Shown in pieces: positions 2,771-23,615 of a stretch of DNA of 32,216 nucleotides. The DNA is from Myxococcales bacterium (GTDB lineage: Bacteria > Myxococcota > Polyangia > Polyangiales > Polyangiaceae), in NCBI GenBank assembly GCA_003151595.1, contig PLXW01000004.1:5113-37328 (forward strand), given 5' to 3'. A program made the position numbers and the translations under genes. The stretch's first letter is position 1. The number at the start of each line of letters is the position of its first letter. The notes below the pieces were generated by a model. It ran no database searches. It was not told the DNA's origin and saw only the letters and a program-made list of their open reading frames with translations.

Positions 2771-4090
2771 GTGAAGCGCAGTCACCTCCCCGTCCACCCG
2801 GTGTTCTTCGCCCTCGCTGCGCTCGCCTCCGGCGCGTGCAAGGCGTCGCCCGACGAGGGCCAGATCCAGATCCTCACGGTCGACGACCCGTTCGTCGGAC
2901 CGCCGGCCGCGACGACGCTCGACGTCGACGGCATCAGCGCCGATGGTGGCGTGACGTCGCTGGTGCACGGGCAATCGGTGTCGCAGAGCTCGATCGACAT
3001 GGGCGACTTCGACGAGAGCGCGACCTACGCCATCCGCGTCACCGCGTTCGGCGCCGACGGGGGCGCGGTGGCGATCGGCGAGACGCTCCCCGTTCAGCTC
3101 GGCGCGCTCGCCGAGAGCGTGCTCGAGGTGTTCGTGCAGCGCGACGGGGTGCTCTCGCGCATGCCGTCGCCGCTCAACGACGCGCGCAACGCGCCGCTCC
3201 TCGGCGTGCTCGGCGGCCGCTACCTCTTCGAAGCCGGCGGCACCGACACGGCCACGGCGACGACCACGAACCTGTACGACCTGATCGGCTACGACTCGTA
3301 CGCCGCCCCGCCGACGTTCGCGACGGCGCCGAAGTCGATGGCGCTCTCGGATCTCGAAGCGCTCTCGATCGACGCCAGCGGCGCGACATGGCTCGACCTC
3401 TCGGCGGACACGACGACGGCCGCGACGCTGCCGAGCGGAGGCACATCCTGGGGAGCGGTCGCCGGCGGGCTCACGGTGCTGGCGGACGACGGGACCGAGT
3501 ACGTCGTGGGCGCAACGCGCACGACCGGCGATCCAACCGCAGCGATCCTCGTCGTGTCGACCACGCAGACGCTCACGTGGGCGACGCTCGGCACGGCGCG
3601 CCTCGGCGCGGCCGCGGGGTGGATTCCGGGACGCGGGCTCGTCGTCGCCGGTGGAAGCCCAGACGCGAAGAGCGCCGGGGCCGAGCTGCTCGGCGCGGGA
3701 GCGACGAACGCGACGCCGCTCCCCTACCCCGCCGATCCCACCACGGGCGGAGGGGTCGACGCGCTCGACACGTCGCACGCGCTCGTGGTCGCCGGATCGA
3801 CCGCGCGCGTGATCGACTTCACGTGCACCGCCGCCTGCACCGCAACTCCCTGGACCGCGACGCTCCCGACGCCGCTCGCCTTCGCGCAGGTGTTCGACAT
3901 CGACTCGTTGAACGCTTTCGTCGTCGGCGAAGAAGCGAGCGGCGTCTCCCACGCCTTCCGACTCTCGGCATCGCTGGCGCAGGAGATCCCGTTCAAGCTC
4001 CCCCGCAGCCACGCGCGCGCCGTTCGTCTGCCGCTCGGTCCCATCGCGATCGCCGGCGGCAACGCCCAGATGGAATCGTTCACGCCGTAG
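2771..4090 (+). CDS. Kelch-like lipoprotein of unknown function
   Basis: The 439-residue protein starts at a GTG preceded by a purine-rich AAGAGAG. A short basic N-terminus and a hydrophobic stretch end in a lipobox, ASGAC, so Cys23 should be lipidated and the protein anchored in a membrane facing the periplasm or outside. The mature part is rich in beta-prone segments. Repeated glycine-pair strands occur (GGRYLFEAGGTD, GRGLVVAGGSPD, SHALVVAGSTA, GPIAIAGGNAQ), which resemble kelch or other beta-propeller blades. I recognise no catalytic motif. The last 11 bases overlap tail-to-tail with the deacetylase-like gene on the other strand. Function is unknown; the propeller reading is inference from repeat spacing. 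Confidence 0.8.
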   Translation: MKRSHLPVHPVFFALAALASGACKASPDEGQIQILTVDDPFVGPPAATTLDVDGISADGGVTSLVHGQSVSQSSIDMGDFDESATYAIRVTAFGADGGAVAIGETLPVQLGALAESVLEVFVQRDGVLSRMPSPLNDARNAPLLGVLGGRYLFEAGGTDTATATTTNLYDLIGYDSYAAPPTFATAPKSMALSDLEALSIDASGATWLDLSADTTTAATLPSGGTSWGAVAGGLTVLADDGTEYVVGATRTTGDPTAAILVVSTTQTLTWATLGTARLGAAAGWIPGRGLVVAGGSPDAKSAGAELLGAGATNATPLPYPADPTTGGGVDALDTSHALVVAGSTARVIDFTCTAACTATPWTATLPTPLAFAQVFDIDSLNAFVVGEEASGVSHAFRLSASLAQEIPFKLPRSHARAVRLPLGPIAIAGGNAQMESFTP

Positions 4091-5072
4091 CGGGGAGATC
4101 CGTTCGCACGAAGTCGCTCAACGTCACCCCTTCGCACCCGTCGGCGCTCAGCTGCGCGAACGTCCCCTCGAGCATCGCGAACACCTTCTCGATCGACGGC
4201 TCGTCGGGGAACGACGGCGACGCTCCGGCCAGCAGCTCCGAGGAGTGAAGCATCATCGTCACGACCCGCAGCCCGAGATCGCGCGCGCACTGGTAGACGC
4301 GCGCGAGCTTCTTCGCATCCATCGACGGGTACGGACGAAACCACTGCGGCTCGAGCGAGAAGGCGCGGTTCAGCAGCCCGGCGCCGCTCCCTCCTCGGAT
4401 CTTCGACCAGGCGCCGCGGACGGCAGCGCTCTTCTGCATCGCCGGGCTGGAGTGGACGATCGTGACGGGGACTTCCCAGAGGCGCGTGTCACCCGGCGCG
4501 CAGATGTCGTTCGCGTCGAGCCGGTACGGCGCGACCGGCGCGTTTCGGAAGTCGGGGCCGGCGGCGCGAACGCCTTTCTCGCCGCGGCGGTCGATGAGCG
4601 GAGTCACCGACGTGTCGACGATGTACCCTAGCTCGAGCAGCACGGGGATCTGCTCGGCCGAGAACCCCCAGCGCCCAGCGCGGTAGCTCGTCGGCGCACG
4701 CCCGGTGCGCGACGTGATGAGCCCGCCGAGCACGCGCATCTTTTCGTGGAAGCGATCGGGCGTCAGCTCGCTGGGATAGCCCGGGTATTCGCCCGGGTCG
4801 ATATCGACCGCGCCTTGCCGCACGAACGGCGGGTTCGTCCACGGATGCAAGTGAGCGCCGACCTCGCATCTCCCGTCGTTCTGCCACGCGATGAGCGGCG
4901 CGAACGTCTCGGCGCGCACGACCTCGTACGTGCACAGGTACGTCGGCTTCATTCCGTAGCGCTCGCACAGCGCTTGAAAGCGCGGGAGCGCACGGAGATT
5001 GTCGACCGTGACCTTGTCCTTCTGCGTCCAGGCGCCGTCGCCTTCTGTGTCGATGGTGAGGACGACCTTCAC
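4080..5072 (-). CDS. Polysaccharide deacetylase-like (NodB-fold) protein
   Basis: The 330-residue protein belongs to the carbohydrate esterase 4/NodB-like deacetylase group, which removes acetyl groups from amino sugars using a metal bound by Asp-His-His. Here LTIDTEGDG (Asp8) stands for the first metal and catalytic motif, GAHLHPW (His74, His76) for the metal histidines, and SYRAGRWGF (Arg131) for the third motif. A late MMLHSSEL fits the final conserved histidine. I chose the GTG at 5072. It overlaps the stop of the upstream hydrolase gene (GTGA) and follows AAGGAG at a good distance; a longer reading would run into the upstream gene. Coupling to the hydrolase suggests a shared task, perhaps processing a glycosylated product or surface sugar. 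The actual substrate cannot be read from sequence. Confidence 0.82.
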   Translation of the reverse strand: MKVVLTIDTEGDGAWTQKDKVTVDNLRALPRFQALCERYGMKPTYLCTYEVVRAETFAPLIAWQNDGRCEVGAHLHPWTNPPFVRQGAVDIDPGEYPGYPSELTPDRFHEKMRVLGGLITSRTGRAPTSYRAGRWGFSAEQIPVLLELGYIVDTSVTPLIDRRGEKGVRAAGPDFRNAPVAPYRLDANDICAPGDTRLWEVPVTIVHSSPAMQKSAAVRGAWSKIRGGSGAGLLNRAFSLEPQWFRPYPSMDAKKLARVYQCARDLGLRVVTMMLHSSELLAGASPSFPDEPSIEKVFAMLEGTFAQLSADGCEGVTLSDFVRTDLPATA

Positions 5073-6859
5073 GTCAGCTCCTTGCCCGCGAGCCCGAGCC
5101 ACTCGTCGAGACGCGCGGTGAGGACGCGATGGGTCCAGATCGCCGTGAAGGTGTGATCGGCTCCGCGGACCTTTTCAATGGTGAGCGCCCTCTTCTTTCG
5201 GAGCCGAGAGACCATCGAGCCACCGAGCTCCATGAGTAGCTGCTCTCCGGCCTCACCGTCGGTAAAGACGAAGCGGAGGTCCACGGCGTGCCTGGCGATT
5301 GCAAAGAGCTCGGTCGCGAGATCGTTCTCGAGCGGTAGGTGGAAGCGCCGCGCCACGCGGCGCGCCTGGCTCACGGAGAAGTCGACCACGCGCTTCCGGA
5401 AGATCCGGCTCGCGGCGCCGAGCTTCACCTTCCCCGTGAAGAGCTTCTTCCACGACTCGCCCTTCAGCAGCGCTTGCCGATAGCGTGCAACCTCCGACGC
5501 CGCCTTGTTCGTGGTGACGGCCGCGACCCCCACCGGCACGTTCGGATCCCAGAAGAAGACCTGCTGGTTGATGCCGATCACGCGCTCGATCTTCGCGCCT
5601 TTCACCGCCGCCTTGAACGCCTGGTATGCGCTCCCGCACAGACCGACGACGTCGATCCTCCCCGCGCCCCACTCCTGGCGCAAATACGCGGCCGCGTCGT
5701 CGATGTCGGCCGGACCGGAGCCGGCGTACACGGCGTTCTCGGTCTCGCCCGCGCGCGGCCGGCTGTCGCCGAGCCCGGCGAGATCGAGCCGAAGCACGAC
5801 CACGCCCTGGCGCGCCCAGTGACGCGCGAGCGTGACCCACAGCCGATTGGGTCCGATGCGATGCTGCGCGCCGGCGTTGAGCACCAGGATCGCGCGCCCT
5901 CCGCGCGGCGTCGTCTCGGGTCGCGTGACGACACCGAAAAGCGTGCGACGCGTGTCGAGGAAGACGGGCGTCTCCACCACACCGGACTCCACGAGAGAGT
6001 CGACGCCGTGCTGGGGCGCGGTCTTCTTCGCTGCGGTTCCTTCCGGGTCACGCAGCATCTGCGGCGCGTGCGAAGTGAGCCACGCCACCGATGCCGCGAT
6101 CATCGCGTCGGGCACGATCGCCTTGTGCGGATCGAGGTTCATCTCGGTGAAACCGGCGATGCGACGTGCGTCCACGTCGACCCCGAGCGCGGAGAGAAGC
6201 GAAGCCCACTTGCCGGTCGCCGCGCGATCGGCGCGCTCGATGAGCAGCACGCGCGGCGCGGGAGCCTTCGCGATCCTGGTCAGATCGAGCGGCACGAGCG
6301 CGGCGCTCGTCTCGGCCGTGATCACGAAGCCCGCGGCCTCCTGATCCCCTTCGCCGATCCCGCTCACGCCGTCGGGCGACTTCTCGAGGCGTCCCCACGC
6401 TTGCAGCGCCTGGAGCTCACGCACGTACTGTTCGGGCGAGACCACCGGGACGATCGCGATGAGCCCCGCGCAGTCCGCGCGCTCCATCGCCGCCGTGGCC
6501 GCGAGCGTCGCGCCCAACCGGAGACCGAAGAGACAGACGCGACGCACGCCCGTCCGTTCGCGCAGCACGTCGACCGCCGCGTGAACGCTGTCGACCCACG
6601 CGCGCACGCGACCGGGATCGCGATCCGATCCCGCCGAGTCGCCCGTGCCGTCGTAATCGAAGCGGAGCGCGGGGAAGCCCGCGCGCGCGAAGGCCTCCGC
6701 GAAATGCCGGAAGCTCCGGTGCGTGCAGATCGCTTCGAAGCCGAACGGGTTGCACAGGACGACGCCGACCTCGGCTCTCGCGTCCGCCGCCGCGTGAAGC
6801 CACCCGAACGTCCGTCGCTGCGGCGGCCCGAAGAAGAACGGTCCCGCCGCGTCGGGCAT
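5069..6859 (-). CDS. Tandem alpha/beta-hydrolase fusion protein
   Basis: The 596-residue protein has two alpha/beta-hydrolase domains in one chain. Domain 1 (about residues 30-270) has VGVVLCNPFGFE, ALRFDYDGTGDSAG and the elbow FGLRLGATLA, with Arg114 where a serine nucleophile is expected. Domain 2 (about 300-590) has AILVLNAGAQHRIGPNR, RLDLAGLGDS, the elbow VVGLCGSAYQA with Cys408 at the nucleophile position, and a late GADHTF that fits the catalytic histidine. Paired hydrolases with GLRLG and GLC-type elbows are known beside exosortase/polysaccharide systems, usually as separate genes. The ATG at 6859 overlaps the upstream reductase stop (ATGA), and the 3' end overlaps the deacetylase start. 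A role in product release, editing or acyl transfer is possible. Domain 1 is probably non-hydrolytic. Confidence 0.85.
   Translation of the reverse strand: MPDAAGPFFFGPPQRRTFGWLHAAADARAEVGVVLCNPFGFEAICTHRSFRHFAEAFARAGFPALRFDYDGTGDSAGSDRDPGRVRAWVDSVHAAVDVLRERTGVRRVCLFGLRLGATLAATAAMERADCAGLIAIVPVVSPEQYVRELQALQAWGRLEKSPDGVSGIGEGDQEAAGFVITAETSAALVPLDLTRIAKAPAPRVLLIERADRAATGKWASLLSALGVDVDARRIAGFTEMNLDPHKAIVPDAMIAASVAWLTSHAPQMLRDPEGTAAKKTAPQHGVDSLVESGVVETPVFLDTRRTLFGVVTRPETTPRGGRAILVLNAGAQHRIGPNRLWVTLARHWARQGVVVLRLDLAGLGDSRPRAGETENAVYAGSGPADIDDAAAYLRQEWGAGRIDVVGLCGSAYQAFKAAVKGAKIERVIGINQQVFFWDPNVPVGVAAVTTNKAASEVARYRQALLKGESWKKLFTGKVKLGAASRIFRKRVVDFSVSQARRVARRFHLPLENDLATELFAIARHAVDLRFVFTDGEAGEQLLMELGGSMVSRLRKKRALTIEKVRGADHTFTAIWTHRVLTARLDEWLGLAGKELT
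5078..5083 (-). promoter_or_regulatory. Ribosome binding site AAGGAG deciding the deacetylase start
   Basis: On the minus strand AAGGAG lies five bases before the GTG at 5072, inside the end of the hydrolase gene. It supports the coupled GTG start over longer in-frame alternatives. Confidence 0.7.
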
Positions 6860-7899
6860 CAGGCCGCGCTCCCGGTCGCCTGGCTCGGCGACGCGATCCG
6901 CACCAGCTGCTTCCCGCGGTTCTCGCCCGAGAACAGCCGCGCCAGCGCCGCCGGCGCGTTCTCGAGCCCGTCGATCACGTCGCTCCGATGCTTGATGCGC
7001 CCCTCGCGCACCCATCCGGCGAGCGCCGAGAGCGCCTCGGGGATGCGTGCGTTGAAGTCGGTCATGAGGAACCCCTCCATGCGGCTCCGGCGAACGACGA
7101 GCTGCATGTAATTGCGCGGGCCGTCCGGCGGCGTCTCGTCGTTGTACCCGGAGATCGATCCGCAGATGACGACGCGCGCGTGAAGCGCGAGGTGCATGAG
7201 CGCCGCGTCGAGGATGCGACCGCCGACGTTGTCGAAGAAGACGTTGATCCCTTTGGGGCACGTCTCGCGGAGGCGCGTCATCACGTTGTCGACTTTGTAA
7301 TCGATGGCCGCGTCGTACCCGAGCTCGCCCGTAAGGTACGCGCACTTCTCGGCGCCGCCGGCGATCCCCACGACGTTGCAGCCGAACGTCTTGGCGATCT
7401 GCCCGACGACCGATCCCGTCGCGCCCGCTGCGCCGGAGACGACGACCGTGTCGCCCGCCTTCACGCCGCCGACGGCGATGAGACCGAAGTACGCCGTGAG
7501 CCCGGTGAGCCCGAAGACGCCGAGCGCATCTTCCATCGACACGCCCTTCGGGATCTTCCGCACGGGGAAGAGATCGTCCGGTCGCGCCACGCCGTAGTCC
7601 TGCCAGCCGCACATGCCGTAGACGAGCTCGCCTCTTGCAAAGGCGGGGTTGCGCGACGTGTGCACTTCGCCGGCCGAGAACGATCGCATCACCTCGCCGA
7701 TCTTCACGGCGGGCATGTACGTCTTGCCGGCCATCCACGATCGCTGCGTCGGGTCGCACGAGAGGAAGAGATTTCGAACGAGCACCTCGCCGTCGTTCAA
7801 CGTCGGCACTGGCGCTTCGATCCATCGAAAGTCGGCGGCGCTCACGACCCCTTTCGGTCGTCGTTCGAGCAGCCACTGTCGGTTCACGTCACTGGTCAT
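6859..7899 (-). CDS. Zinc-independent MDR-family NADPH oxidoreductase (CurA/LTB4-dehydrogenase type)
   Basis: The 346-residue protein is a medium-chain dehydrogenase/reductase of the group that reduces alpha,beta-unsaturated carbonyls with NADPH. Visible motifs are FLSCDPTQRSWM near the N-terminus, GLTGLTAYFGL, the nucleotide-binding GAAGATGSVVGQIAK, FGCNVVGIAGG, and VFFDNVGG. No zinc-ligand pattern is present. The start is the ATG at 7899 because GGAGG lies five bases upstream; an earlier ATG at 7917 lacks a site. The gene sits 41 bases after the ketoreductase stop and shares ATGA with the hydrolase gene downstream. In this operon it most likely acts as a free-standing enoyl reductase on the growing acyl chain. 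Detoxification of stray enones is the alternative. Confidence 0.9.
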   Translation of the reverse strand: MTSDVNRQWLLERRPKGVVSAADFRWIEAPVPTLNDGEVLVRNLFLSCDPTQRSWMAGKTYMPAVKIGEVMRSFSAGEVHTSRNPAFARGELVYGMCGWQDYGVARPDDLFPVRKIPKGVSMEDALGVFGLTGLTAYFGLIAVGGVKAGDTVVVSGAAGATGSVVGQIAKTFGCNVVGIAGGAEKCAYLTGELGYDAAIDYKVDNVMTRLRETCPKGINVFFDNVGGRILDAALMHLALHARVVICGSISGYNDETPPDGPRNYMQLVVRRSRMEGFLMTDFNARIPEALSALAGWVREGRIKHRSDVIDGLENAPAALARLFSGENRGKQLVRIASPSQATGSAA

Positions 7900-7904
7900 C
7901 GTGG

Positions 7905-7909
7905 CCTCC
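7905..7909 (-). promoter_or_regulatory. Ribosome binding site GGAGG deciding the MDR reductase start
   Basis: GGAGG on the minus strand, five bases before the ATG at 7899. It lies within the codons of the alternative upstream ATG (7917), so the shorter protein is preferred. Confidence 0.7.
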
Positions 7910-7940
7910 GGTTGCATCGAGCGTGGCATCGATCGCGCGC

Positions 7941-8684
7941 TCAGGTGAGGCCGCCGTCGACGACGAGGACCTGCCCCGTCAGGTATTGCGGCGCATCGGT
8001 CGCAAGGTAGCCGACGAGCCCGGCGACTTCCGAAGACGTTCCGAACCGTCGCATCGGCACCCGCTCGATCGACGCCGCGCGCTGCTTCGGCGAGAGCGAC
8101 GCGAGCATGTCGGTCTCGATGAACCCGGGCGCGACGGCGTTCACGCACGCGCCGTACCGCGCGAGCTCCTTCGAGAGCGAGCGCGTGAAGCCGATGATCG
8201 CCGACTTCGCGGCGGAGTACGCCGTCTGCCCGGGGATGCCGACGACGCCCGACACCGACGTGAGGTTGATGATCCGCCCTCCGCGCTGCCGCATCATCTG
8301 CTTCGACGCCGGCTGCGTCATGCCGAAGAGGCCGTTGAGGCTGGTGCTCAGCACCGCCTGCCAGTCGTCGACCGTCATCATCGCCAGCAAGCGATCGGCG
8401 AGGACGCCCGCGTTGTTCACGAGGACATCGAGGCGGCCGCGATCGGCGATGACCTTGTCGACCATCGCCGTGCAGGCACCGACGTCGCGGGCGTCGACGC
8501 GCGACGCGACCGCGAGCTTGCCGAGCGCCGTGACTTCATCGACGAGTGACGTTGCGGCCGCCTCGTCCTTCACGAACGTGAAGTGGACCTCGAAGCCGCG
8601 CGCGACGAGGTCGAGCACGATCGCCCGGCCGATGCCGCGCGAGCCGCCGGTGACGAGCGCGATCTTGGGCTCGGTGGTGGTCAT
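7941..8684 (-). CDS. FabG-like 3-oxoacyl-ACP reductase (ketoreductase)
   Basis: The 247-residue short-chain dehydrogenase has VTGGSRGIGRA for NADP(H) binding, LVNNAGVLAD, and a catalytic set Ser143-Tyr156-Lys160 in NLTSVSG and TAYSAAK. The end VAPGFIETDM...VVDGGLT is standard for 3-oxoacyl-[ACP] reductases. Length matches FabG. The ATG at 8684 overlaps the stop of the KS partner (ATGA), with GGAGG upstream. Position in a KS/partner/ACP operon says it reduces beta-keto groups on the cluster's carrier protein. It is likely a pathway-dedicated KR rather than the fatty-acid housekeeping enzyme, though sequence alone does not prove this. Confidence 0.93.
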   Translation of the reverse strand: MTTTEPKIALVTGGSRGIGRAIVLDLVARGFEVHFTFVKDEAAATSLVDEVTALGKLAVASRVDARDVGACTAMVDKVIADRGRLDVLVNNAGVLADRLLAMMTVDDWQAVLSTSLNGLFGMTQPASKQMMRQRGGRIINLTSVSGVVGIPGQTAYSAAKSAIIGFTRSLSKELARYGACVNAVAPGFIETDMLASLSPKQRAASIERVPMRRFGTSSEVAGLVGYLATDAPQYLTGQVLVVDGGLT

Positions 8685-9898
8685 GATGGATCGCCTCCAG
8701 GTGCGGCCGCCGGCGAGAGGACGAGCGCCGAACACGAACCGTTGCGCGCGATCGACGTGACGAGCGCGGCGCCACTCTCCACCGACGCTTCGTTCGTCGC
8801 GTAGCGAAGCCCGCTGACTTCGGGCTCTTCGAGGCCGGCTATCGGCGGCGCCTTCTTCGTCTCGAACGCCGACAGCGCCACGAGCGCTTGAAGCGCCCCC
8901 GCCGTGTCGAACGTCTCGCCCAGCGCGCCCTTCACGGCGGCGACCGGCACGCGCGACGCGTGCGCTCCGAGCGCCGCCACCAGCGCCTCGGCTTCGGCGC
9001 GATCGACCTCGTGCGCCCCTGACGCGCTCGCGCTCACCAGCGCCACGCCATCGGCCGCCACGTCGGCCGACCGCAGCGCCGCCACCGACGCGCGCTGCAA
9101 CGCGCTCGCCTGATTCTCCGCCTTCGTCGCAAACGTCGCCGCATACCCGCGCAGCGTTCCGCGCGCGATCGCGCCTCGTGCCATCGCGTCCTCGGCCCGC
9201 TCGAGAACGAACGCCACCGCCGCCTCGCCCAGCCCTGCTCCCGTGCCGCGGCGATCGAACGGGCGCACCTCGCCCGTCGACGCGAGCAATCCGGCGCGCG
9301 AGATGGCGCGCACGACATCGGCCGACGCCGAGAACGCGCTGACCACGACGCACGCACGCGCGCGCCCTTCGGTGATCCAGCGCGCGCCGAGCGCGATCGC
9401 GTCGAGGGACGACGACCCGCCGTCGCTGAGCGTCATCGAGAACGCCTTCGCGCCGAACGCCAGCGCGACCATCGCGCCGGGCGCGCTCGGGATCGCGAAC
9501 GGCATGAGCGCGCCGTTCGTTCGCTGCACACCGTTGGCGACGAGGCTCCGGTCGTACTCGAGCAAGACGTCGAGGTGACCGTACGTGCTCGCCATCAGCA
9601 CGCCGAGGTCGTCGCCCGGGAAGGTGGCGGTGTCTATCTTGGCGTCGGTGAGCGCGAGCCTAGTCGCGCAGATCGCGAGGCGCGTCGTCCGGTTGTACAT
9701 GCGGAGGCCGCGCACGTTCGTGTACTTCGTGGCCTCGAAGTCGGCGATCGATGCGAGCCCCACGCCGCCGTGCTCGCTCGAAGACGCGATCGCTCTTCGC
9801 CCTTCGCAGAGCGCGGCGAAGATCGCGTCGGGTGCGTCCCCGATCGGCGTGAGCACGCCGACGCCCGTGACGGAGACCGGCGCGCCCGGCGACGTCAC
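8681..9898 (-). CDS. Degenerate ketosynthase (chain-length-factor-like partner)
   Basis: The 405-residue protein has the thiolase/ketosynthase fold from end to end: VSVTGVGVLTPIG at the N-terminus, RPFDRRGTGAGLGEAAVAFVLE in the middle (written here as RPFDRRGTGAG and LGEAAVAFVLE). The active site is lost. At the nucleophile the sequence is SDGGSSSLDAI, with Gly161 for Cys. The HGTGT histidine region reads SASASGAHEVD, and the GHT histidine is replaced in VKGALGETFDTAG. It therefore cannot condense by itself and should be the KS-beta/chain-length-factor partner of the active KS encoded just upstream. The GTG at 9898 overlaps that gene's stop (GTGA), giving the coupled, equimolar expression expected for a heterodimer. 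Type II chain-length factors often have Gln at the Cys position; Gly is a different solution. Confidence 0.88.
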   Translation of the reverse strand: MTSPGAPVSVTGVGVLTPIGDAPDAIFAALCEGRRAIASSSEHGGVGLASIADFEATKYTNVRGLRMYNRTTRLAICATRLALTDAKIDTATFPGDDLGVLMASTYGHLDVLLEYDRSLVANGVQRTNGALMPFAIPSAPGAMVALAFGAKAFSMTLSDGGSSSLDAIALGARWITEGRARACVVVSAFSASADVVRAISRAGLLASTGEVRPFDRRGTGAGLGEAAVAFVLERAEDAMARGAIARGTLRGYAATFATKAENQASALQRASVAALRSADVAADGVALVSASASGAHEVDRAEAEALVAALGAHASRVPVAAVKGALGETFDTAGALQALVALSAFETKKAPPIAGLEEPEVSGLRYATNEASVESGAALVTSIARNGSCSALVLSPAAAPGGDPS

Positions 9899-11130: not shown

Positions 11131-11146
11131 GCGTGACCCGCCGGCT

Positions 11147-11389: not shown

Positions 11390-11405
11390 CGCCTTTTCGC
11401 GTTGG

Positions 11406-14430: not shown

Positions 14431-14473
14431 TCGGATCGCTCATCGTATCGACCGGAGCGCCGGGGGTGAAGCT

Positions 14474-15361: not shown

Positions 15362-15453
15362 GGCGGGGATCGGAATCGCGGAAATCGGGGGCGCCACGTG
15401 AGGGAGCATCGCAAAAGTTGGTCGCGGGCGCGCGGGTCGAGTACACGCGGCGT

Positions 15454-16025: not shown

Positions 16026-17804
16026 ATGCGGTGGATGCGAGCTGCGGCGGTCGCTACGGCGCTCATGGTCAACATGGGGGCGATGAGCGGCCTCACGGGG
16101 TGCTCGAGCGATGACTCGTCGCAGGCGGCGCAGCAGCACGCATCGACCGTCGTTGGAGCCACGGGCGGCACCGTCACCACGCAAGACGGAACCGGCGTCA
16201 CCGTCCCCGCGGGCGCGGTCCCGGCGAACGTCACCATCACCGTCGACGCCACGCCCAGCGCGCCGACACCGTCGCAGGGCACCGCCGTCGGGACGCCCTA
16301 CACGTTCGGACCCGAGGGGCAGCAGTTCAGCGTCCCTGTGACCGTGACGCTCGCCTTCGATCCCAGCTCGCTCCCCGCGGGCAAGACGGCGAACGACGTC
16401 GTCATCTTCACGGCGCCCGCCGGCACGACCAGCTACGTCCCGCTCGGCACGTCGGTCGTCGACTCGACCCACGCCGCCGCGCAAACCACGCACTTCTCGA
16501 CCTTCGTCTGCGTCATCCCGCTCGAGCCGATCGTGGGCGAAGACTCGGGCGCGCCGATCGACGACGCTTCGGAAGCGACCGACTCGAGCCCGCAGCAAGG
16601 GGACGACGCGACCTCTGCTGACGACGGCGCCACGACCGCGACCGACGCCGGTGCGATCCCCGACGGCTCCGACCAAGGCGACTCGACCGTCGACAAGGAC
16701 AGCGGCTCCAACCAGGAAGACAGCGGTTCGACCGGCCCGAGTGACGCGACGATCGGCGGCAACGACGGCAGCGACGCAGTCGACGCATCGTCGCCGAGCG
16801 ACGGCGGCGGCTCCAACCAGCAAGACGGCGGTTCGACCGGCCCGAGCGACGCGACGATCGGCGGCAACGACGGCGGTGGCGGCGTCGCCGACGCATCGCC
16901 CCCAACCGACAGCGGCGGCAGCGGCCCTTCCGACGCGACGACCGGACCGAGCGATGCGAGCGGCCCTTCCGACTCCGGCGCAGCGTGCAACGTGAACGGA
17001 GCGCTTGGAGCGTCGATCATCCCGCTCCAGCAATTCGGCGGCCTGAACATGAACCAGAGCGGGCCCGGCCTCGCGACGCTGGCGTACGCCGAGAGCGTCT
17101 TCTGCGGACCCGGGGCGTTCGAAAGCGAGACCGACGCGGGCGTCACGACCGTGGGCTGGCAGAACCAGGCCATGAACGTGGACTACGATCAGAACGGTCT
17201 GCTCGTCTCGCTGATGATGCGCGCGGGGCCGGGAACGGTGACGTTCAAGAGTCGCGCGAACGGCGCCTATGGCACGGGACACGGCTACGTCATCGGGGTC
17301 GGCACCCTCACGAAAGACGGGTCGCCCCTCGTCATCGACTGGACCGGTACGCCCGCCACCGCCATCAACGAGATCTTCGACGGCATGATGGCGACGTTCG
17401 CGCCGACGTTTCCGGTCGACGTGGACTGCGTCGCCTCCGGCACGTGCGGCGTCAACCCCAGCAACCCCGACGCCGGAGTGACCAACTCGTTCTTCGGCAT
17501 ACGCACGCTGAGCTTCTACGCCGGCATGACCGGCAACACGTCGGTCCCCGCGTACGTCTACACGTTCTTCAACGGCGAGCTCCCCGTCCCCGACGCCGGA
17601 GCCTTCCCGGGTCTTCCCGGCAACGGCGGCATGGTGATCCCGAGCGGCTGCGCGCAGCAGGGTTCGGGGAACACGGGCGGCACGTGCGCGAGCCCGAACG
17701 CGGCGCTCTGCGGCAAGCACGCCGGAACGACGGCCGTCACGTGCGAAGACTGGCCGCAGTTCGGATACACCGCGACGTGCTGCCCGACCGACGCCGGCCC
17801 GTAG
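16026..17804 (+). CDS. Large lipoprotein with ZU5-like domain and Asp/Ser/Gly-rich repeat linker
   Basis: The 592-residue protein starts at an ATG with AGGGGGAG six bases upstream. The signal ends in LTGC, so Cys26 is lipidated. Residues about 40-160 resemble a ZU5-type beta domain: GATGGTVTTQDGTGVTVPAG, then YTFGPEGQQFSVPVTVTLAFD. About 170-320 is an acidic, low-complexity linker that includes a 35-residue tandem repeat (GSTGPSDATIGGNDG in each copy). The C-terminal domain (about 320-592) has eight or more cysteines and no family I know. Neighbours on both sides are also lipoproteins. The layout suggests a surface protein whose C-terminal domain is held away from the membrane by the linker. 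Confidence 0.82.
   Translation: MRWMRAAAVATALMVNMGAMSGLTGCSSDDSSQAAQQHASTVVGATGGTVTTQDGTGVTVPAGAVPANVTITVDATPSAPTPSQGTAVGTPYTFGPEGQQFSVPVTVTLAFDPSSLPAGKTANDVVIFTAPAGTTSYVPLGTSVVDSTHAAAQTTHFSTFVCVIPLEPIVGEDSGAPIDDASEATDSSPQQGDDATSADDGATTATDAGAIPDGSDQGDSTVDKDSGSNQEDSGSTGPSDATIGGNDGSDAVDASSPSDGGGSNQQDGGSTGPSDATIGGNDGGGGVADASPPTDSGGSGPSDATTGPSDASGPSDSGAACNVNGALGASIIPLQQFGGLNMNQSGPGLATLAYAESVFCGPGAFESETDAGVTTVGWQNQAMNVDYDQNGLLVSLMMRAGPGTVTFKSRANGAYGTGHGYVIGVGTLTKDGSPLVIDWTGTPATAINEIFDGMMATFAPTFPVDVDCVASGTCGVNPSNPDAGVTNSFFGIRTLSFYAGMTGNTSVPAYVYTFFNGELPVPDAGAFPGLPGNGGMVIPSGCAQQGSGNTGGTCASPNAALCGKHAGTTAVTCEDWPQFGYTATCCPTDAGP
16704..16874. repeat. 105-bp tandem direct repeat in the lipoprotein linker
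   Basis: A 66-base block at 16704-16769 recurs nearly unchanged at 16809-16874, a period of 105 bases (35 codons). It encodes GSNQ(E/Q)D(S/G)GSTGPSDATIGGNDG in both copies. The sequence between copies is diverged. Confidence 0.85.
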
Positions 17805-17839
17805 CCCGCGACGTCACCGAGGGCGCGCTCCGAGACGGA

Positions 17840-18331
17840 TCACATACCGTCGACGATCTTGTACTGGTCCCCTTCGGGCACGAGATCGAGGCGATTGTCG
17901 GCGACCGTGTGGCGCCACTCTTCGCCCTTGGTGCCGGGGATGCGGTAGCTCGCCGCGTACGTGTAGTCGACGTACACGTGCTGGTTCTCGTTGAAGGTCA
18001 CGCGGCGATACTTGATCTCGTATCGAATGCCCGTGGTCTTCATGAACGTACCGGCGAGGTACTGCTTCAACCCGTCGAAATCGATGTCGTCTTCGCCGCG
18101 CGTGTTGCCGCCGTCCTCGTGGTAGCGGGCGCTGGCGAGCGAGAGCAGCTTGCCGATGTTCTTGTCTTCGACCGCGTGCCGGTACTCCTCGCAGAAGAGG
18201 ACGACGCGACGGTTCTCGCTCGAGTCCTCGACCTCCGTGTTCGGGATGTACGTCTTGGAGCAAGCGCTGGCCGCGAAGGCCAACGCGGCGAGGGCGGCGA
18301 GGTGGGTAGTGGAAAAATGGGCGCGGGTCAT
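17840..18331 (-). CDS. NTF2-like lipoprotein, unknown function
   Basis: The 163-residue protein has a signal ending in AASAC (Cys24). A compact domain of about 125 residues follows, with a helix-rich first half (FCEEYRHAVEDKNIGKLLSL) and a strand-rich second half (RYEIKYRRVTF, HVYVDYTYAASY, RLDLVPEGDQYKIVDGM). That order, and the 'perform, then test residual activity' type ending, fit the NTF2/SnoaL-like fold. The start is the ATG at 18331; longer readings have no signal. It lies 65 bases downstream of the KS fusion gene on the same strand, so it could be a last, loosely coupled member of that operon. Confidence 0.78.
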   Translation of the reverse strand: MTRAHFSTTHLAALAALAFAASACSKTYIPNTEVEDSSENRRVVLFCEEYRHAVEDKNIGKLLSLASARYHEDGGNTRGEDDIDFDGLKQYLAGTFMKTTGIRYEIKYRRVTFNENQHVYVDYTYAASYRIPGTKGEEWRHTVADNRLDLVPEGDQYKIVDGM

Positions 18332-18396
18332 CGTGGGGGGAACCGCGCGAAGGGCGTCGGTGTTCCCGGAGCATAGTCGAACGGGGCGGCGGCGCG

Positions 18397-20370
18397 TCAA
18401 TTTGGGGGGAGCGCGGCGAGAGACACGGTCGCGGAGGCGTGCGTGGCGAGGAGGGTCGAGGTCGCGGTGACGTGGGAGGGGGCGCTCGGCGCGTCGAGGG
18501 GGGCGAGGGCGAGGTGGCCCGAGGGGGTCGGGGTCGGGGCCGCGGTCGAGGGGGCGAGCGAGGTGTACGCCGACACGATGCGCGCGAACGAGCCGGCGAC
18601 GCGATCGCGCGTGACCAGGACGGCGACGGCGCCGGCGGCGACGGGACCGACGAGCGGGCCGAGCGCGCTCGACCATGCGCGCGCGACCTCGTCGATGTCA
18701 TCGACGGCGACGACGAGCATGCGCGACGCGTCGCCGGCCCGAACCAGCGTGAACGCCGCCGCCAGAGCCTCGACCGCGGCGTGCAGGCCGGCACCGACCG
18801 AGAACGCGGGGCCGGTCAGGCCGAAGACGACGCCGCACTCTCCGGCGACGGCGTTCGGCGAGGTGTATGGGAAGCGTCGCGGTTCGACGAGGCGAGCGCC
18901 GCGCTCGCGCATGCGCGCGGCGTAACGGGCGTTGGTCTCGAGCGTGGCCGCCGCGGTACCGACGACGATGCCTGCGCCGGCGAACGCCTCGCGACCGATA
19001 CGCGATGCGAGCGCGTCGAGGGCGGCGAGCGACCATGTGACGTGCGCGTCGGCGCGGGCGAGCTTGTCGAGCGGGAGGCCGATGGACGCGGAGAGCGAGG
19101 CGAGATCGGGCGAGGCGGTGACGTGCGCGGCGCGCGTGACCCAGGCTTCGCTCGTCGCTCGCGCATCGTGCGGCGACGGGTCGCGGGCGAGGACGAGCGC
19201 GGCGTTGGCGCCACCGAAGGCCGACGCGAGCTTCAAGGCGACGCTTGGTGCGCCCGCTTCGGCGCGATCAAGGAGGCGCACCTTGGCATCGGGATCGAGC
19301 GGACCGTCGCCGGCCGTCGCGGGGAGAATGCCGCGGGTGAGCGCGTCGATGGCCGCGAGCGACTCCAGCGCACCGGCAGCGCCCAGCGTGTGACCGACCT
19401 GCGCCTTGAAGGCGTGGACCACGACATCGCCCGCATCGTCGGTCACGCGCGCGATCGCGCGAGATTCGGCAGCGTCGTTGAACGGGGTCGCGGTGGCGTG
19501 CGCGCTCACGAGGTCGATCCGCGGCGCGCCCGCTTCGTCGATCGCCGCTCGTGCCGCGCGCGCCAACCCCGAGCCACTTCGATCCGGCGCCGTCAGATGC
19601 ACCGCGTCCGCCGCCGCGCCGAAGCCGCGCACGTAGGCGATCGCATCGCGCGCGTCTTCCGGCCGCACGAGCGCGAGCACGGCGCCCGCCTCGCCCAGCG
19701 CCATTCCGTCGCGCCCGATGCGGAACGGACGGGGCGGAACCTGCGTGCTCGTGGCCTGCAGCGCCTCGAAGCCAGACGCGACGAAGGGACTCACCGCGTC
19801 GAAGCCGCCCGCGAGCACGAGATCGCATTCACCGGCGGCGAGCCAGCGCGACGCGAGACCGATCGCGATGGCCGACGATGCGCAGGCACACAAGACGAGC
19901 GAAGCCGGCGCGAAGGCGAGATCGATCTCGGCCACTGCGTCGAGCAGCGGACCGAAGTACGCGGCGCGAGCGGCGAGCGCCGGCGAGAGCGGTTCCCCTC
20001 GCGCGATACGCGTGAAGAGCGTCTGCGCGGTGCGCATGCCGCCGCTCGACGTGCCGATGGCGAGGCCCACGCGCGCCCCCCGCCACCCCGGACGCCTGGT
20101 ATCGAGCGACGCCGTGCACGCGCGAAGGCTCCTCGTGAGAATGCGCGTCGCCCGATCGGCGCCGGCCCCGACGTCGTCCCTCTCCGCGTTCGAGAGCGCG
20201 ACCCGCGCGGCGAACGGACGCGCGAGTCCACTCGCCTCGAGCTCGGGGTCGCGCGTGATGGCGACGCGCGCCGGCGCACCGATTTCTCCCGCGCTCGCAG
20301 CGCTCCACCCTTCGCCGAGCGCCGACACCGCGCCGAACGCGACGACCGCAGCGCCCGCGCTCCCGCTCAC
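18397..20370 (-). CDS. Ketosynthase fused to an inactive half-ketosynthase (KS-KS')
   Basis: The 657-residue protein has a full ketosynthase at residues 1-400 with Cys163 (LCACASSAIAIG), His291 (VSAHATATPFND), Lys322 and His327 (AFKAQVGHTLGAAG). From about 410 to 600 a second, shorter KS-like N-terminal domain follows (GIVVGTAAATLETNARYAAR, FPYTSPNAVAGECG, GLTGPAFSVGAGLHAAVEAL). It has no active-site Cys and no C-terminal half. That matches the beta-ketoacyl-synthase-like N-terminal domain often encoded separately in aryl-polyene clusters. The GTG at 20370 overlaps the upstream lipoprotein stop (GTGA). The first KS looks able to condense; the second probably acts as a built-in partner. The C-terminal tail is Ala/Thr/Pro-rich. 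Confidence 0.88.
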   Translation of the reverse strand: MSGSAGAAVVAFGAVSALGEGWSAASAGEIGAPARVAITRDPELEASGLARPFAARVALSNAERDDVGAGADRATRILTRSLRACTASLDTRRPGWRGARVGLAIGTSSGGMRTAQTLFTRIARGEPLSPALAARAAYFGPLLDAVAEIDLAFAPASLVLCACASSAIAIGLASRWLAAGECDLVLAGGFDAVSPFVASGFEALQATSTQVPPRPFRIGRDGMALGEAGAVLALVRPEDARDAIAYVRGFGAAADAVHLTAPDRSGSGLARAARAAIDEAGAPRIDLVSAHATATPFNDAAESRAIARVTDDAGDVVVHAFKAQVGHTLGAAGALESLAAIDALTRGILPATAGDGPLDPDAKVRLLDRAEAGAPSVALKLASAFGGANAALVLARDPSPHDARATSEAWVTRAAHVTASPDLASLSASIGLPLDKLARADAHVTWSLAALDALASRIGREAFAGAGIVVGTAAATLETNARYAARMRERGARLVEPRRFPYTSPNAVAGECGVVFGLTGPAFSVGAGLHAAVEALAAAFTLVRAGDASRMLVVAVDDIDEVARAWSSALGPLVGPVAAGAVAVLVTRDRVAGSFARIVSAYTSLAPSTAAPTPTPSGHLALAPLDAPSAPSHVTATSTLLATHASATVSLAALPPN

Positions 20371-21131
20371 AACGCCGCTCCGTTCTTGTCGATAGCGTCC
20401 GGATCGAGGAACGCCGCCGGATCGGGCTCGTGCTCCCCTACCCCTTCGACCAGCACTTCCACCTCGAGGCCGCTCGCGCCATCGACGTAGTGCGCCTTGT
20501 CGCCCGCGTGCGGCGCCACCGGCGATCGTCCGAGCCACTCGAGGCGCTCGACGCGCGCATCTTCGCGACGCGCAGCGACGACGTGATCGCGTCGCGATCG
20601 CGCGACGTGTCCTTCGCGGAGGAGCACGGTCTCGTCGCCGCGCCGGAGCAAGTAGAGCGCGCCGGCGTCGCGCGCCCACGCCGCCAGCAGACGGCCGTCG
20701 AGCGGGTGGAGCATCCACCATCGGAAGAAGCCGATCGGCAGACCACGCGCGGCCTGCACGTCGGCGCCGCCACGACGCAGGAACGCGATCCCCGGCACGG
20801 CGAACCGGAACTGATCGTCAGTCACCCACGCATCGAGCGCCGTCGCGCCGCCGGGGCCGACGAGGATCATGCGGAGGGCGTGCTTGGGATCGACGGCGAT
20901 GGCGCCGCGCGCCTGAAAGATCTTCCCCGTTCGCGGCTCGCGCAAGGCGACGACCACGTTCGCGACGTACGGTCGCTCGGGCTCGGCGCTCCGCGCGATC
21001 GCCAGGCGCTCGCGCAGGCGCGTCCACTCGCGCGCCGTCGGATCGGGGAGCGCCGTCGGCACGAACGGCGAAGGGCGCGGCGCGCACGCGGCGATCGCGA
21101 GCGCCATCACGCCGAACGCGAGCGCTCTCAC
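20367..21131 (-). CDS. Outer-membrane-type lipoprotein within the ketosynthase operon
   Basis: The 254-residue protein starts at a GTG overlapping the upstream KS-fusion stop (GTGA). The signal ends in AIAAC, so Cys16 is lipidated. The mature protein contains a strand-rich region (NVVVALREPRTGKIF, QARGAIAVDPKHALRMIL, VTDDQFRFAVPG). It recalls the LolA/LolB-like and DUF3261/DUF4292 lipoproteins found in aryl-polyene clusters. No catalytic motif is seen. Being locked between two ketosynthase genes implies a role in the same pathway, perhaps carrying or inserting a hydrophobic product at the outer membrane. The fold comparison is by eye and uncertain; the lipoprotein call is firm. Confidence 0.83.
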   Translation of the reverse strand: MRALAFGVMALAIAACAPRPSPFVPTALPDPTAREWTRLRERLAIARSAEPERPYVANVVVALREPRTGKIFQARGAIAVDPKHALRMILVGPGGATALDAWVTDDQFRFAVPGIAFLRRGGADVQAARGLPIGFFRWWMLHPLDGRLLAAWARDAGALYLLRRGDETVLLREGHVARSRRDHVVAARREDARVERLEWLGRSPVAPHAGDKAHYVDGASGLEVEVLVEGVGEHEPDPAAFLDPDAIDKNGAAL

Positions 21132-23311
21132 GGCGCGCTCAACGCGACGAGATAGCCGCGCCCTCGCGACAGCCCCACGACGAGCACGTCGCTCGCCTCT
21201 CCGCGCGCGATCCGGCTCACGGCCACCGCGATCGCGATCGCGCCCAACGCTTCGTGCTCGCCGCCCGATCCCACGCACGCCGCACGCGGGACGTCCCGCC
21301 ATGCCGAGTCCGCGAGCAGCGCGCCCATCCCATCCAGTCCGCGCGGAGAGATCACCTGCGCGCGCGACGCATCGCGCGGCGCGGGGGGCGAAGGGGCCGC
21401 ATCTCCAGCGCGCCAGCTCGCCACCGACGTCACCCGCGCGATCACGTTCGCTCCGCGCGCGCGCGCGCTCTCCTCGGACTCGAGGATCACGGCGCCTCCC
21501 CCCTCGCCGTGCTTGCCGCGCGCGGAGAAGCCCTCGCTCGCGAAGAGCGCCGCGATCACGCGCTCCACGATCCCGTTGGCCTCTTCGCAGTCGCCGGCGG
21601 CGATGGCGTCGGCCTCGCCCGCGGCGATGAGCTCCACGGCTTGCATCGTGGCGCATTCGCCGCTCGCGCCAAGCTCCGCCGCGGCGAGCACCGGGCCGCG
21701 CAGGCCGAGATAGATCGACGCGTGCCCGACCGGCGAGCTCGGCACGAGGTTCGGAAACTCCGCCGGGCTCGCGAGCCTCGGCCCCTTGGCGAAGATGCGG
21801 TGCATGAACGCCGCGGAGGCATCGATGCTCCCGAACGAGCTGCCGAGGATCACGCCGGTGCGTTCGACCGAGAGCCCGCGCGCGTCCTCCAGTGCGCGGC
21901 CGACGACGATCGCTCCGAGGCGCGCCGGCCGATCGAGCCTCCGCGCGCGATCGAGATCGAGCATCGACTCCAGCGGCGGCAACGTCGGTCCGATCGACGA
22001 GCCGTCCCCTTCCATCGCGCGCGCCGAGTCGTGCGTGCCGAGCAGGCCCACGGGGGTCAGCGTCGCCGCCGCGGTGACGACCACGCTTCGCCGCGAGGGC
22101 GCATGCTCGCGCCCCAGCTCGGGCTCGGTGATCACGAGCGCGCTGTCCATCCCACCGAAGCCGAATGCGTTCGTGATCGCCGCCCTCACGCGCGCCGCGC
22201 GCCCCACCCCTTTGACGTGCGACACCCCCGCGCACGCCGGATCGATCTCGCCGAGCCCCGCGGTCGGCACGAGCGTCTGCCGCGCCACGACGAGGGCCGT
22301 GATCCCCGCTTCGATCCCTCCGGCCGCGGCCAGCGTGTGCCCGATCTGCCCCTTCGAGCTCGACACGGCGACGTCGGGAGAGAGGGCGCGCGCGATCGCC
22401 GCGCACTCCATCGGATCGTTGAGCGGCGTCGCCGTCCCGTGCGCATTCACGTAGTCGACGTCGCGCGCCTCCAGTCCTGCGCGCGCGAGCGCTCGCTTGA
22501 TCACGCGCTCCGCGGTCGCGCCGGTCGGCTCGGGGTTCGTGATGTGGTGCGCCTCGGCCGCGAGCGACCACCCCGCGAGCTCGGCGATCGGCTCACGCTT
22601 TCGCGCGCGCGCCACGTCGTCACGCTCGACGACGAGGAACCCCGCCCCCTCGCCCAGGTTGAGCCCGCGCCGTCGCGCATCGAAGGGCTTGCACGGCTCG
22701 GGATCGATCGCGGCCAGCGCGTTGAACCCGGCGAGCGTCAGTCGACACAAGCCGTCGGTCCCGCCGGCGACGACCGCATCGACCTCGCCCGCGAGCAGCC
22801 ACGACGCCGCGACGATGAGGGCGTTGGCGCCGCTGGAGCACGCGCTGGAGAGCGTTCGCACGCGCGCGAACGGGCCGAGCGTCTCGTGCAAGCGATCGCT
22901 CGTGGCCCACAACGGGTGCGACAAGAGCCCGCGCAGCTCGTCGCTCCGTGAAGGGTCGGCGTACACGCCCGCCAGCACCTCTTCGTTCTCGAGCATCCCG
23001 CCGGTCGTCCCGCCGACGACGAGCCCCACGCGCCGCCCCTTCACGTCGATGCCCGACATGGCGATCGCTTCGCGCGCCGCCACGTACGCCATCTCCGCGG
23101 TGCGCGACCACGCCGCGTCGTTCGGCGCGTGCGCCTGCGTCGCTTCACGCAGCCCGCGCACCTCGCACCCGAGCGCCGCGCGATACCCCTCGGTCGCGAA
23201 CCGCGTGATCGGCGCCATCGCCCGGTCGCCGCGCACGAGGCGCTCCCACGTCGCCTCCGCGCCAATCGCGAGCGGCGTCACGAGCCCGATGCCGGTGATC
23301 CAGATCCGCAT
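21128..23311 (-). CDS. Ketosynthase fused to an inactive ketosynthase domain (KS-KS')
   Basis: The 727-residue protein has an intact KS at residues 1-400: MRIWITGIGLVTPL, Cys158 (TLSSACSSGANAL), GLNLGEGAGFLVVE, His291 (VNAHGTATPLND), Lys320 and His325 (SSKGQIGHTLAAAGG). From about 408 a second KS-like domain begins (SVVVTAAATLTPVG; GVILGSSFGSIDAS; EFPNLVPSSPVGHASIYLG). Its nucleophile region, AELGASGECATMQ, lacks the Cys at the expected place, and the later histidine motifs are absent. The ATG at 23311 is ten bases after the ACP stop; a longer start at 23344 would overlap the ACP. The stop overlaps the lipoprotein start. It is a second KS with an in-cis inactive partner, similar in plan to the protein encoded at 18397-20370 but clearly diverged from it. 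Confidence 0.9.
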   Translation of the reverse strand: MRIWITGIGLVTPLAIGAEATWERLVRGDRAMAPITRFATEGYRAALGCEVRGLREATQAHAPNDAAWSRTAEMAYVAAREAIAMSGIDVKGRRVGLVVGGTTGGMLENEEVLAGVYADPSRSDELRGLLSHPLWATSDRLHETLGPFARVRTLSSACSSGANALIVAASWLLAGEVDAVVAGGTDGLCRLTLAGFNALAAIDPEPCKPFDARRRGLNLGEGAGFLVVERDDVARARKREPIAELAGWSLAAEAHHITNPEPTGATAERVIKRALARAGLEARDVDYVNAHGTATPLNDPMECAAIARALSPDVAVSSSKGQIGHTLAAAGGIEAGITALVVARQTLVPTAGLGEIDPACAGVSHVKGVGRAARVRAAITNAFGFGGMDSALVITEPELGREHAPSRRSVVVTAAATLTPVGLLGTHDSARAMEGDGSSIGPTLPPLESMLDLDRARRLDRPARLGAIVVGRALEDARGLSVERTGVILGSSFGSIDASAAFMHRIFAKGPRLASPAEFPNLVPSSPVGHASIYLGLRGPVLAAAELGASGECATMQAVELIAAGEADAIAAGDCEEANGIVERVIAALFASEGFSARGKHGEGGGAVILESEESARARGANVIARVTSVASWRAGDAAPSPPAPRDASRAQVISPRGLDGMGALLADSAWRDVPRAACVGSGGEHEALGAIAIAVAVSRIARGEASDVLVVGLSRGRGYLVALSAP

Positions 23312-23321
23312 CGCGCCGTCG

Positions 23322-23615
23322 TCACCCCGCGGCCGCGGAGGCACGCGACGCCATCACGTGCGTCGCCAGCGTCCGCACCGATCGAAAGATCGGCCGCGCG
23401 TCGTCCCCTTCCGGAATCCGAATTCCGAAATGCTCTTCGACGCTCATGGCCAGCTGCAACGCATCGAGCGAGTCGAGCCCCAGGCTCGCCGTCCCGTTCT
23501 GGGCCGGACCGAACAGGAGCGCGTCGTCGTCGATCGCGGCCGGATCACGCCCTTGCAGGTTCAGCTCTTTGACGATGAGGGCCTTGAGCTCGGCGCGAAG
23601 CTGCGATTCATCCAT
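23322..23615 (-). CDS. Acyl carrier protein heading the second operon
   Basis: The 97-residue carrier protein has the site ASLGLDSLDALQLAMSVEE with Ser49, followed by HFGIRIPEGDDAR. This pattern is typical of ACPs of aryl-polyene and type II fatty-acid-like systems. It is the first gene of the four-gene operon that continues with KS-KS', lipoprotein and KS-KS'. It should carry the chain for those ketosynthases. It differs clearly from the ACP encoded at 11147-11389, so the two operons each have their own carrier. The ATG at 23615 follows a short region with a pair of direct repeats. Confidence 0.93.
   Translation of the reverse strand: MDESQLRAELKALIVKELNLQGRDPAAIDDDALLFGPAQNGTASLGLDSLDALQLAMSVEEHFGIRIPEGDDARPIFRSVRTLATHVMASRASAAAG

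Follow-up and report, generated by a model that had tools for sequence, protein, structure and literature searches.

The DKxanthene-type pathway of myxobacteria is a pyrrole-primed modular polyketide synthase (PKS), and the first-pass annotation of the locus described here had tied the known pyrrole polyketides of myxobacteria to modular megasynthases of this kind. The locus lies in a 32,216-nucleotide stretch of a Myxococcales bacterium genome (assembly GCA_003151595.1, contig PLXW01000004.1, positions 5,113 to 37,328; hereafter the window), where a minus-strand operon of 10 genes, operon 1, combines a putative pyrrole-forming cassette with free-standing ketosynthase (KS) and reductase genes. 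While the free-standing arrangement of operon 1 holds, the tie to megasynthases was too strong, as the prodiginine pathway, in the portion of PMC6667630 that deals with it, is primed with pyrrole by the discrete enzymes PigI, PigG, PigA and PigJ.

Operon 1 shares with the MBC branch of prodiginine and tambjamine biosynthesis (PigI, PigG, PigA, PigJ, PigH) a discrete prolyl ligase, a peptidyl carrier protein (PCP) and a prolyl-PCP dehydrogenase and, going by the same part of PMC6667630, it would also share the handing of the pyrrole-2-carboxyl group to a KS, which condenses it with a malonyl unit. It differs in that its KS and an inactive KS partner (KS′) are two genes, both under the cut-off of the PigJ model, in having its own ketoreductase (KR) and medium-chain dehydrogenase/reductase (MDR), and in the lack of a PigH-like gene among those scanned. 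The ligase, PCP and dehydrogenase cassette is likewise shared with the DKxanthene-type modular PKS, whereas the KS, KS′, acyl carrier protein (ACP) and KR of operon 1 are single-function proteins and not multidomain modules. Type II PKSs built on a KS and a chain-length factor (KS-CLF; actinorhodin, 1tqy, and 9s5h) also pair an active KS with one that has lost its catalytic residues, but operon 1 combines this pair with a predicted proline-derived pyrrole primer and an MDR reductase, and no cyclase or aromatase was found among the operon genes scanned.

The aryl polyene and flexirubin clusters, to which the locus had initially been likened, have in common with it KS and KS′ pairs, a FabG-like KR and an ACP, as well as the lipoproteins of a second operon in the window (operon 2); neither operon holds a dehydratase by Pfam, the divergent gene at 23990 being of the enoyl-CoA-hydratase (ECH) family. 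This likeness does not extend to the curated cut-offs, namely 407 for PRK09185 (operon 1 KS 246, the two KS-KS′ fusions of operon 2 303.5 and 211.6), 70 for PRK09184 (operon 2 ACP 58.9) and 340 for FlxB (KR 242.1), where we take PRK09185 (KS) and PRK09184 (ACP) to mark aryl polyene genes. Among open-licence papers, judged by title and the start of the abstract, no description of a pyrrole-primed KS-CLF pathway or of this gene set was found. Operon 1 is a new variant, but of a known kind of biosynthesis, as pyrrole priming by discrete enzymes is already known from prodiginine.

Gene calls were made from codon-position G+C together with Pfam and NCBIfam scans of the window, which place all genes named in the first-pass annotation within 4080–23615. 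Four more genes of this interval went unmentioned in that annotation: the double hydrolase (5069–6859), the deacetylase-like gene (4080–5072), a nucleotidyltransferase gene (14474–15409) and an oppositely oriented lipoprotein-like ZU5 gene (16026–17804). The pyrrole cassette with discrete KS, KS partner, ACP, KR and MDR genes is present as a single operon (4080–14430) whose core recurs in six other genomes, and its genes in order of transcription are:

13285–14430, minus: prolyl-carrier-protein dehydrogenase, acyl-CoA-dehydrogenase fold, PigA type (NF053553, 5zw0)
11648–13288, minus: L-prolyl-AMP ligase (TIGR01733, 6o6e, code DLFYFALVCK)
11406–11651, minus: carrier protein, presumed PCP for proline (PF00550, 33.9 bits)
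11147–11389, minus: ACP, presumed malonyl/extension ACP (PF00550, 45.2 bits)
9895–11130, minus: KS, FabF-like, Cys-His-His motifs kept (PF00109/PF02801, 9s5h_B)
8681–9898, minus: KS′, KS partner without catalytic residues, chain-length-factor-like (motif rows by eye, 9s5h_C)
7941–8684, minus: FabG-like KR (PF13561, NF009466)
6859–7908, minus: MDR enone/alkenal reductase, CurA/PTGR-like (PF16884, PF00107)
5069–6859, minus: fused double alpha/beta hydrolase, hydr2 plus hydr1 like (TIGR03101 and TIGR03100, below cut-offs)
4080–5072, minus: probable polysaccharide-deacetylase-like protein (homologue names only)

With a probability of about 0.7, we read operon 1 as encoding free-standing enzymes that start and extend a pyrrole-primed chain of polyketide or fatty-acid-like type, and operon 2 as a separate system beside which operon 1 was most likely inserted. 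The ligase would load L-proline onto the PCP and the dehydrogenase would oxidise it to pyrrole-2-carboxyl-S-PCP, two assignments for which the sequence case is strong. The KS with its inactive partner would then accept the pyrrole acyl group and carry out one or more condensations with malonyl-ACP, after which reduction of the beta-keto group and of the double bond by the KR and MDR would give a pyrrolyl-acyl-ACP. As operon 1 has no dehydratase, one would have to be borrowed from fatty acid synthesis if full reduction occurs. Release may differ between lineages: in two relatives it is probably performed by a nonribosomal peptide synthetase (NRPS) module with a thioesterase, while in the window's lineage transfer or release of the chain probably falls to the double hydrolase, and the deacetylase-like protein could conceivably act on a glycan acceptor. 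The product is most likely a pyrrolyl-acyl chain.

Predicted priming and condensing enzymes of operon 1

The assignment of the starter begins with the dehydrogenase, which falls in the PigA group (561.6 bits against model NF053553, cut-off 500), stays under the cut-off of the RedW model NF045652 (425.6 bits, cut-off 650) and has as its top PDB chain the L-prolyl-PCP dehydrogenase 5zw0 (380 bits), with the prolyl-ACP dehydrogenase 4irn at 292 bits. The ligase passes TIGR01733 (359.2 bits, cut-off 317.4), and its top PDB chain, 6o6e, is an L-proline--[L-prolyl-carrier protein] ligase (380 bits; 4d4g 227 bits). Read from the printed alignment at positions that we take to correspond to PheA numbering, its specificity residues DLFYFALVC are identical to DLLYLALVC of 6o6e at seven of nine sites, the remaining two being hydrophobic swaps. 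The same pocket residues occur in the six other copies, save for one garbled-looking stretch in L128, and both the PCP and the ACP keep their DS site in the six other loci. Since dehydrogenase and ligase both match prolyl enzymes, pyrrole-2-carboxyl-S-PCP is well supported as the predicted starter.

For the condensing enzymes, the window KS and all other copies long enough to cover the sites (up to six other genomes) keep the motifs ACSSG, HGTGT and KSMIGH (KSxxGH). The counterpart stretches of KS′, placed by eye, have lost the Cys and both His, again in the window copy and in all others that extend so far. What the operon holds is an active KS, a catalytically inactive KS partner and a separate ACP, the type II-like arrangement of KS-CLF systems. 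The KS finds chain 9s5h_B first (298 bits, next 261) and the KS′ profile finds 9s5h_C first (234 bits, next 189), these being two chains of one PDB entry, and the predicted model of KS′ (pLDDT 93.6) has a KS fold with the actinorhodin KS and CLF among its structure matches, although 9s5h does not appear among the 50 fold matches listed; a literature search on the 9s5h entry brought up an unrelated paper only. On the strength of the motifs, the paired 9s5h chains and the fold of KS′, the two proteins probably work as a KS-CLF heterodimer. Of the reductases, the KR reaches the FabG subfamily model NF009466 (255.6 bits, cut-off 222) and scores 273.9 bits against TIGR01830, under its cut-off of 297.75; the MDR scores 344 bits against NF058644, under a cut-off of 440.

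Distribution and gene order of the two operons

Class-wide searches scored the best three to five candidates per genome, which makes the counts of 6 and 66 of 317 genomes given below lower bounds. KS′ is present in at least 6 of the 317 genomes of the class to which G001, one of the six, belongs, and a sample of the phylum yielded it in 3 of 377 genomes, all three already among the class finds. Among 7,995 candidates scored, 178 proteins were related to KS′ at E ≤ 0.001, and four organism names are given among the best 120 of these 178: Polyangiaceae, Anaeromyxobacter, a family name based on Anaeromyxobacter, and Myxococcales.

The dehydrogenase is found in all six other operon-1 genomes at 68–84% identity, and each keeps the order dehydrogenase, ligase, PCP, ACP, KS (split over two contigs in G003). 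KR follows KS′ in five, the sixth contig ending in KS′. The MDR gene occurs in every one, but its position varies: it lies downstream in G001, four genomes have it upstream in divergent orientation, and in G005 it is upstream with no change of strand. In G001 it is followed by the double hydrolase, as in the window, before the contig stops inside the hydrolase gene. Two of the six carry an NRPS module of condensation, adenylation, thiolation and thioesterase domains (C-A-T-TE) after KR; the code of one (L127) looks glycine-like, but its final positions are out of register by one in the alignment, so that this reading is a hint only and was not used. In the window itself, five of the operon 1 junctions overlap by 4 nt and one by 1 nt, the other three having gaps of 16, 16 and 32 nt. 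The overlapping junctions and the recurrence of the gene order in other genomes argue that the operon is not a chance assembly.

PigA-like proteins are more widespread, with matches at E ≤ 1e-100 in 37 of the 317 class genomes, but a dehydrogenase match over the PigA cut-off occurs in only seven, the six operon-1 genomes and G281. Over up to 20 kb, no KS/KS′ pair of the operon-1 type was seen near 13 of the 35 non-operon-1 PigA-like matches, and in 2 of these 13 loci (L172, L181) the ligase, PCP and dehydrogenase cassette sits beside large KS-bearing frames, as would fit a modular PKS of the DKxanthene type. Operon 1 is a genuine and conserved variant of pyrrole-primed polyketide biosynthesis that is rare among the genomes searched.

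Operon 2 lies 3.4 kb from operon 1, with a nucleotidyltransferase (NTP-transferase) gene and an opposite-strand gene inside the gap. The features from operon 1 to the far side of operon 2 are:

14474–15409, minus: NTP-transferase (PF00483)
16026–17804, opposite strand to the operons: lipoprotein-like gene between the operons (ZU5 domain)
17840–18331, minus: operon 2 lipoprotein-like gene B (lipobox-like SAC by eye)
18397–20370, minus: operon 2 second KS-KS′ fusion (PF00109/PF02801)
20367–21110, minus: operon 2 lipoprotein-like gene A (lipobox-like AIAAC by eye)
21128–23344, minus: operon 2 first KS-KS′ fusion (PF00109/PF02801)
23322–23615, minus: operon 2 ACP (PF00550; NF006617 58.9 bits, cut-off 70)
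23990–24841, plus: ECH family gene, divergent from operon 2 (PF00378)

The order of operon 2 is ACP, first fusion, lipoprotein A, second fusion, lipoprotein B. The two KS-KS′ fusions and the ACP were correctly recognised in the first pass, but the single lipoprotein reported with them is in fact two lipoprotein-like genes (20367–21110 and 17840–18331). There is no reductase and no dehydratase among the operon 2 genes. The first fusion is found at E ≤ 1e-100 in at least 66 of the 317 class genomes, and of 14 genomes searched for the second, 13 hold a match above 470 bits. All nine operon-2 loci inspected (L132–L140) hold the full set of divergent ECH, ACP, fusion, lipoprotein A, fusion and lipoprotein B, relatives of each lipoprotein being present in every one, with the ECH of L139 partial at a contig end.

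Among the class genomes searched, this set and operon 1 occupy different genomes. With all candidates scored, none of the six operon-1 genomes holds an ortholog of the first fusion (best 206 bits, as against at least 340 for the 66 class matches), and the operon-1 KS′ match is absent from the 66 operon-2 genomes among the best three to five candidates scored in each. The overlap between the 6 and the 66 of 317 is therefore 0, where 1.25 would be expected by chance (P(0) 0.24); being within chance, this shows no association rather than avoidance. The joint occurrence of the operons that a single system would predict is not seen across the class. Either one is found in separate genomes without the other, the outcome that the first-pass annotation had itself named as refuting its joint reading. 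In three of the operon-1 genomes, a KS-rich locus (L141, L142, L144) carries a distant KS-KS′ fusion and one further KS, with a faint ACP match in two of the three. These loci are perhaps those genomes' own counterpart of operon 2, but they were not counted as operon 2 because no frame in them best-matched lipoprotein A, lipoprotein B or the second fusion.

Gene order gives a similar picture. G245 holds, in order, a chorismate-binding gene, a Kelch-like gene, an IgGFc-binding-domain gene, an NTP-transferase, further genes, operon 2, ECH, further genes, a MATCAP gene and an AAA gene, which is largely the window's own order, with nothing that matches an operon 1 gene. Partial agreement, again without operon 1, comes from G210 (Kelch, NTP-transferase, operon 2) and from G278 (arginyl-tRNA synthetase, NTP-transferase, operon 2 genes). 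Since these three genomes keep operon 2 and flanking genes in the absence of operon 1, the most economical and likeliest explanation is an insertion in the lineage of the window that placed operon 1 between the Kelch-like gene and the NTP-transferase gene, and operon 2 looks like a separate KS-KS′/ACP/lipoprotein system of the class. G+C content was dropped as evidence of insertion, as operon 1 (0.687) is lower than operon 2 (0.727) and the left flank (0.717), yet higher than the right flank (0.672). The NTP-transferase and ECH genes were considered as members of operon 1 and rejected, as genomes that have no operon 1 still carry them close to operon 2 (the NTP-transferase in L135/L146, L139 and L147).

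Competing readings of the locus

The window was initially described as a cross between a pyrrole pathway and an aryl polyene cluster, that is, one hybrid in which operon 1 would provide pyrrole priming and operon 2 the elongation or export of an aryl-polyene-like pigment. The operons are indeed neighbours on the same strand and both are based on KS and KS′, and a relative of KS′ (71%) and one of the KS-KS′ fusion (78%) both come with a longest contig of 40,125 bases, which hints that the two operons may still be adjacent in the nearest clade. Such shared longest-contig values (40,125; 19,285; 19,178) are a hint only and coincidence is possible, another, 5,867, being common to a KS-KS′ relative and to L128, where no such gene was found. 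The lack of any positive association in the lower-bound class counts, the persistence of operon 2 and its flanks in G245, G210 and G278, and the two genes lying between the operons all speak against a joint pathway, which we rejected on distribution and gene order and regard as improbable. A prodiginine-type bipyrrole pathway is more improbable still, to the point of being very nearly discounted. It would account for the same priming trio and for a PigA-family dehydrogenase over its cut-off, but neither a PigH-like serine-condensing enzyme, nor a methyltransferase, nor a PigC-like condensing enzyme appears among the window genes scanned, KS (97.1 bits) and KS′ (33.6 bits) fall far short of the PigJ cut-off of 900, and the KR and MDR would have no role in the pathway to the extent that PMC6667630 sets it out.

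Closer to our preferred reading is the possibility that operon 1 makes a diketide only, with one PigJ-like condensation to a pyrrolyl-beta-ketothioester that KR and MDR would reduce to a short pyrrolyl-propanoyl building block. A KS with a separate inactive partner resembles iterative KS-CLF systems more closely, and the low PigJ score of the KS also argues against this shorter route. The single C-A-T-TE module after KR in two relatives would nonetheless fit a small acyl-amino acid, and PigJ of prodiginine biosynthesis, in the section of PMC6667630 devoted to it, performs a single condensation of this type with discrete partners; we hold the diketide possible, if somewhat unlikely. A broader proposal, which is rather doubtful as a whole, is that operon 1 represents a dedicated Myxococcota pyrrole-primed type II fatty-acid/polyketide synthase, which would build acyl chains tipped with pyrrole by means of its own chain-length partner and into which lineages plug different release modules. 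Some would use an NRPS-thioesterase; the window's lineage would use the double hydrolase, which it has in common with aminoacyl-carrier-protein systems, to move the pyrrolyl-acyl group onto a (deacetylated) glycan.

Several observations weigh against the reading of operon 1 as a self-contained initiation and elongation set inserted beside an unrelated operon 2. By Pfam and NCBIfam scans, operon 1 is without a dehydratase, a malonyl acyltransferase, a phosphopantetheinyl transferase (PPTase) or a classic thioesterase, and the role of KS′ could be limited to one condensation. The double hydrolase was found in just one of the six other operon-1 genomes (locus L001 of G001) and the deacetylase-like gene in none of them, although in G001 the hydrolase gene runs off the end of the contig; on these counts both genes lie outside the conserved core. 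Turning to operon 2, the operon-1 genome G002 has a KS-KS′ fusion that is distant (34% identity, 183.5 bits) but almost complete in length, the operon-1 genomes G003 and G014 hold fusion-sized frames of similar score, and the 40,125-base contigs leave room for the operons being neighbours in the nearest relatives.

If operon 1 does initiate and elongate a pyrrole-primed chain, it would be a case of pyrrole starters entering a KS-CLF-like system of free-standing enzymes that brings its own reductases, in contrast to the modular PKS and prodiginine routes. The set is compact, with eight core genes in about 7.6 kb from dehydrogenase to MDR, which suits it to heterologous expression and to asking how a KS/KS′ pair accepts a PCP-bound aromatic starter.

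The double hydrolase, the deacetylase-like gene and the flanking genes

The double hydrolase has matches in at least 32 of the 317 class genomes (E ≤ 1e-40, best four candidates scored), one of them an operon-1 genome, and a relative is present in eight of nine fetched regions. At the eight hydrolase loci outside operon 1, query locus L193 included, a GH2-like gene accompanies it in all eight, a carrier protein and a PPTase in six and an amino acid:[carrier protein] ligase in four, as judged by similarity to the genes of the query locus, several contigs being truncated. In G279, which holds the query locus, the hydrolase occurs with an acyl-CoA-dehydrogenase-like gene, DUF1839, a PPTase, a carrier protein, a GH2-like gene and an acyltransferase, and with an amino acid:[carrier protein] ligase of 396.8 bits (cut-off 357). 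This company links the hydrolase with the chemistry of amino acids bound to carrier proteins and perhaps, through GH2, with glycans, which makes its role testable.

A cassette recurs among these loci, at L193 (7745–17190) and also at L191, L194 and L198, consisting of an amino acid:[carrier protein] ligase, a carrier protein, a PPTase and DUF1839 together with an acyl-CoA-dehydrogenase-like enzyme, a GH2-like enzyme, the double alpha/beta hydrolase and, in most, an acyltransferase. Its content suggests an aminoacyl-carrier-protein pathway that includes a glycan step, and the literature searched held nothing on this. Such ligase cassettes of the same class (PRK07080) share with operon 1 the double hydrolase, an acyl-CoA-dehydrogenase-like enzyme and a carrier protein, but their ligase is tRNA-synthetase-like rather than AMP-binding and no match to the window's KS was found in the eight loci.

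The deacetylase-like protein (4080–5072), whose gene overlaps the preceding one by 4 nt, has no Pfam or NCBIfam match, and its best PDB match is at E 0.41. Among the candidates scored it has 3,639 relatives; two of the best 120 are named PgdA/CDA1 deacetylase, most of the other named ones being hypothetical proteins, and a deacetylase role is suggested weakly.

Of the remaining genes, the ZU5 protein between the operons (16026–17804) has, by eye, acidic, glycine- and serine-rich repeats. Beyond the ECH gene lie a MATCAP-family gene (tyrosine carboxypeptidase, PF08014, 413.8 bits) at 24846–26363, which an AAA ATPase gene adjoins in L135, L138, L140 and L151, and a heavy-metal resistance-nodulation-division (RND) pump of the CusA/CzcA family at 28252–31407 (TIGR00914, 816.2 bits, cut-off 701.45).

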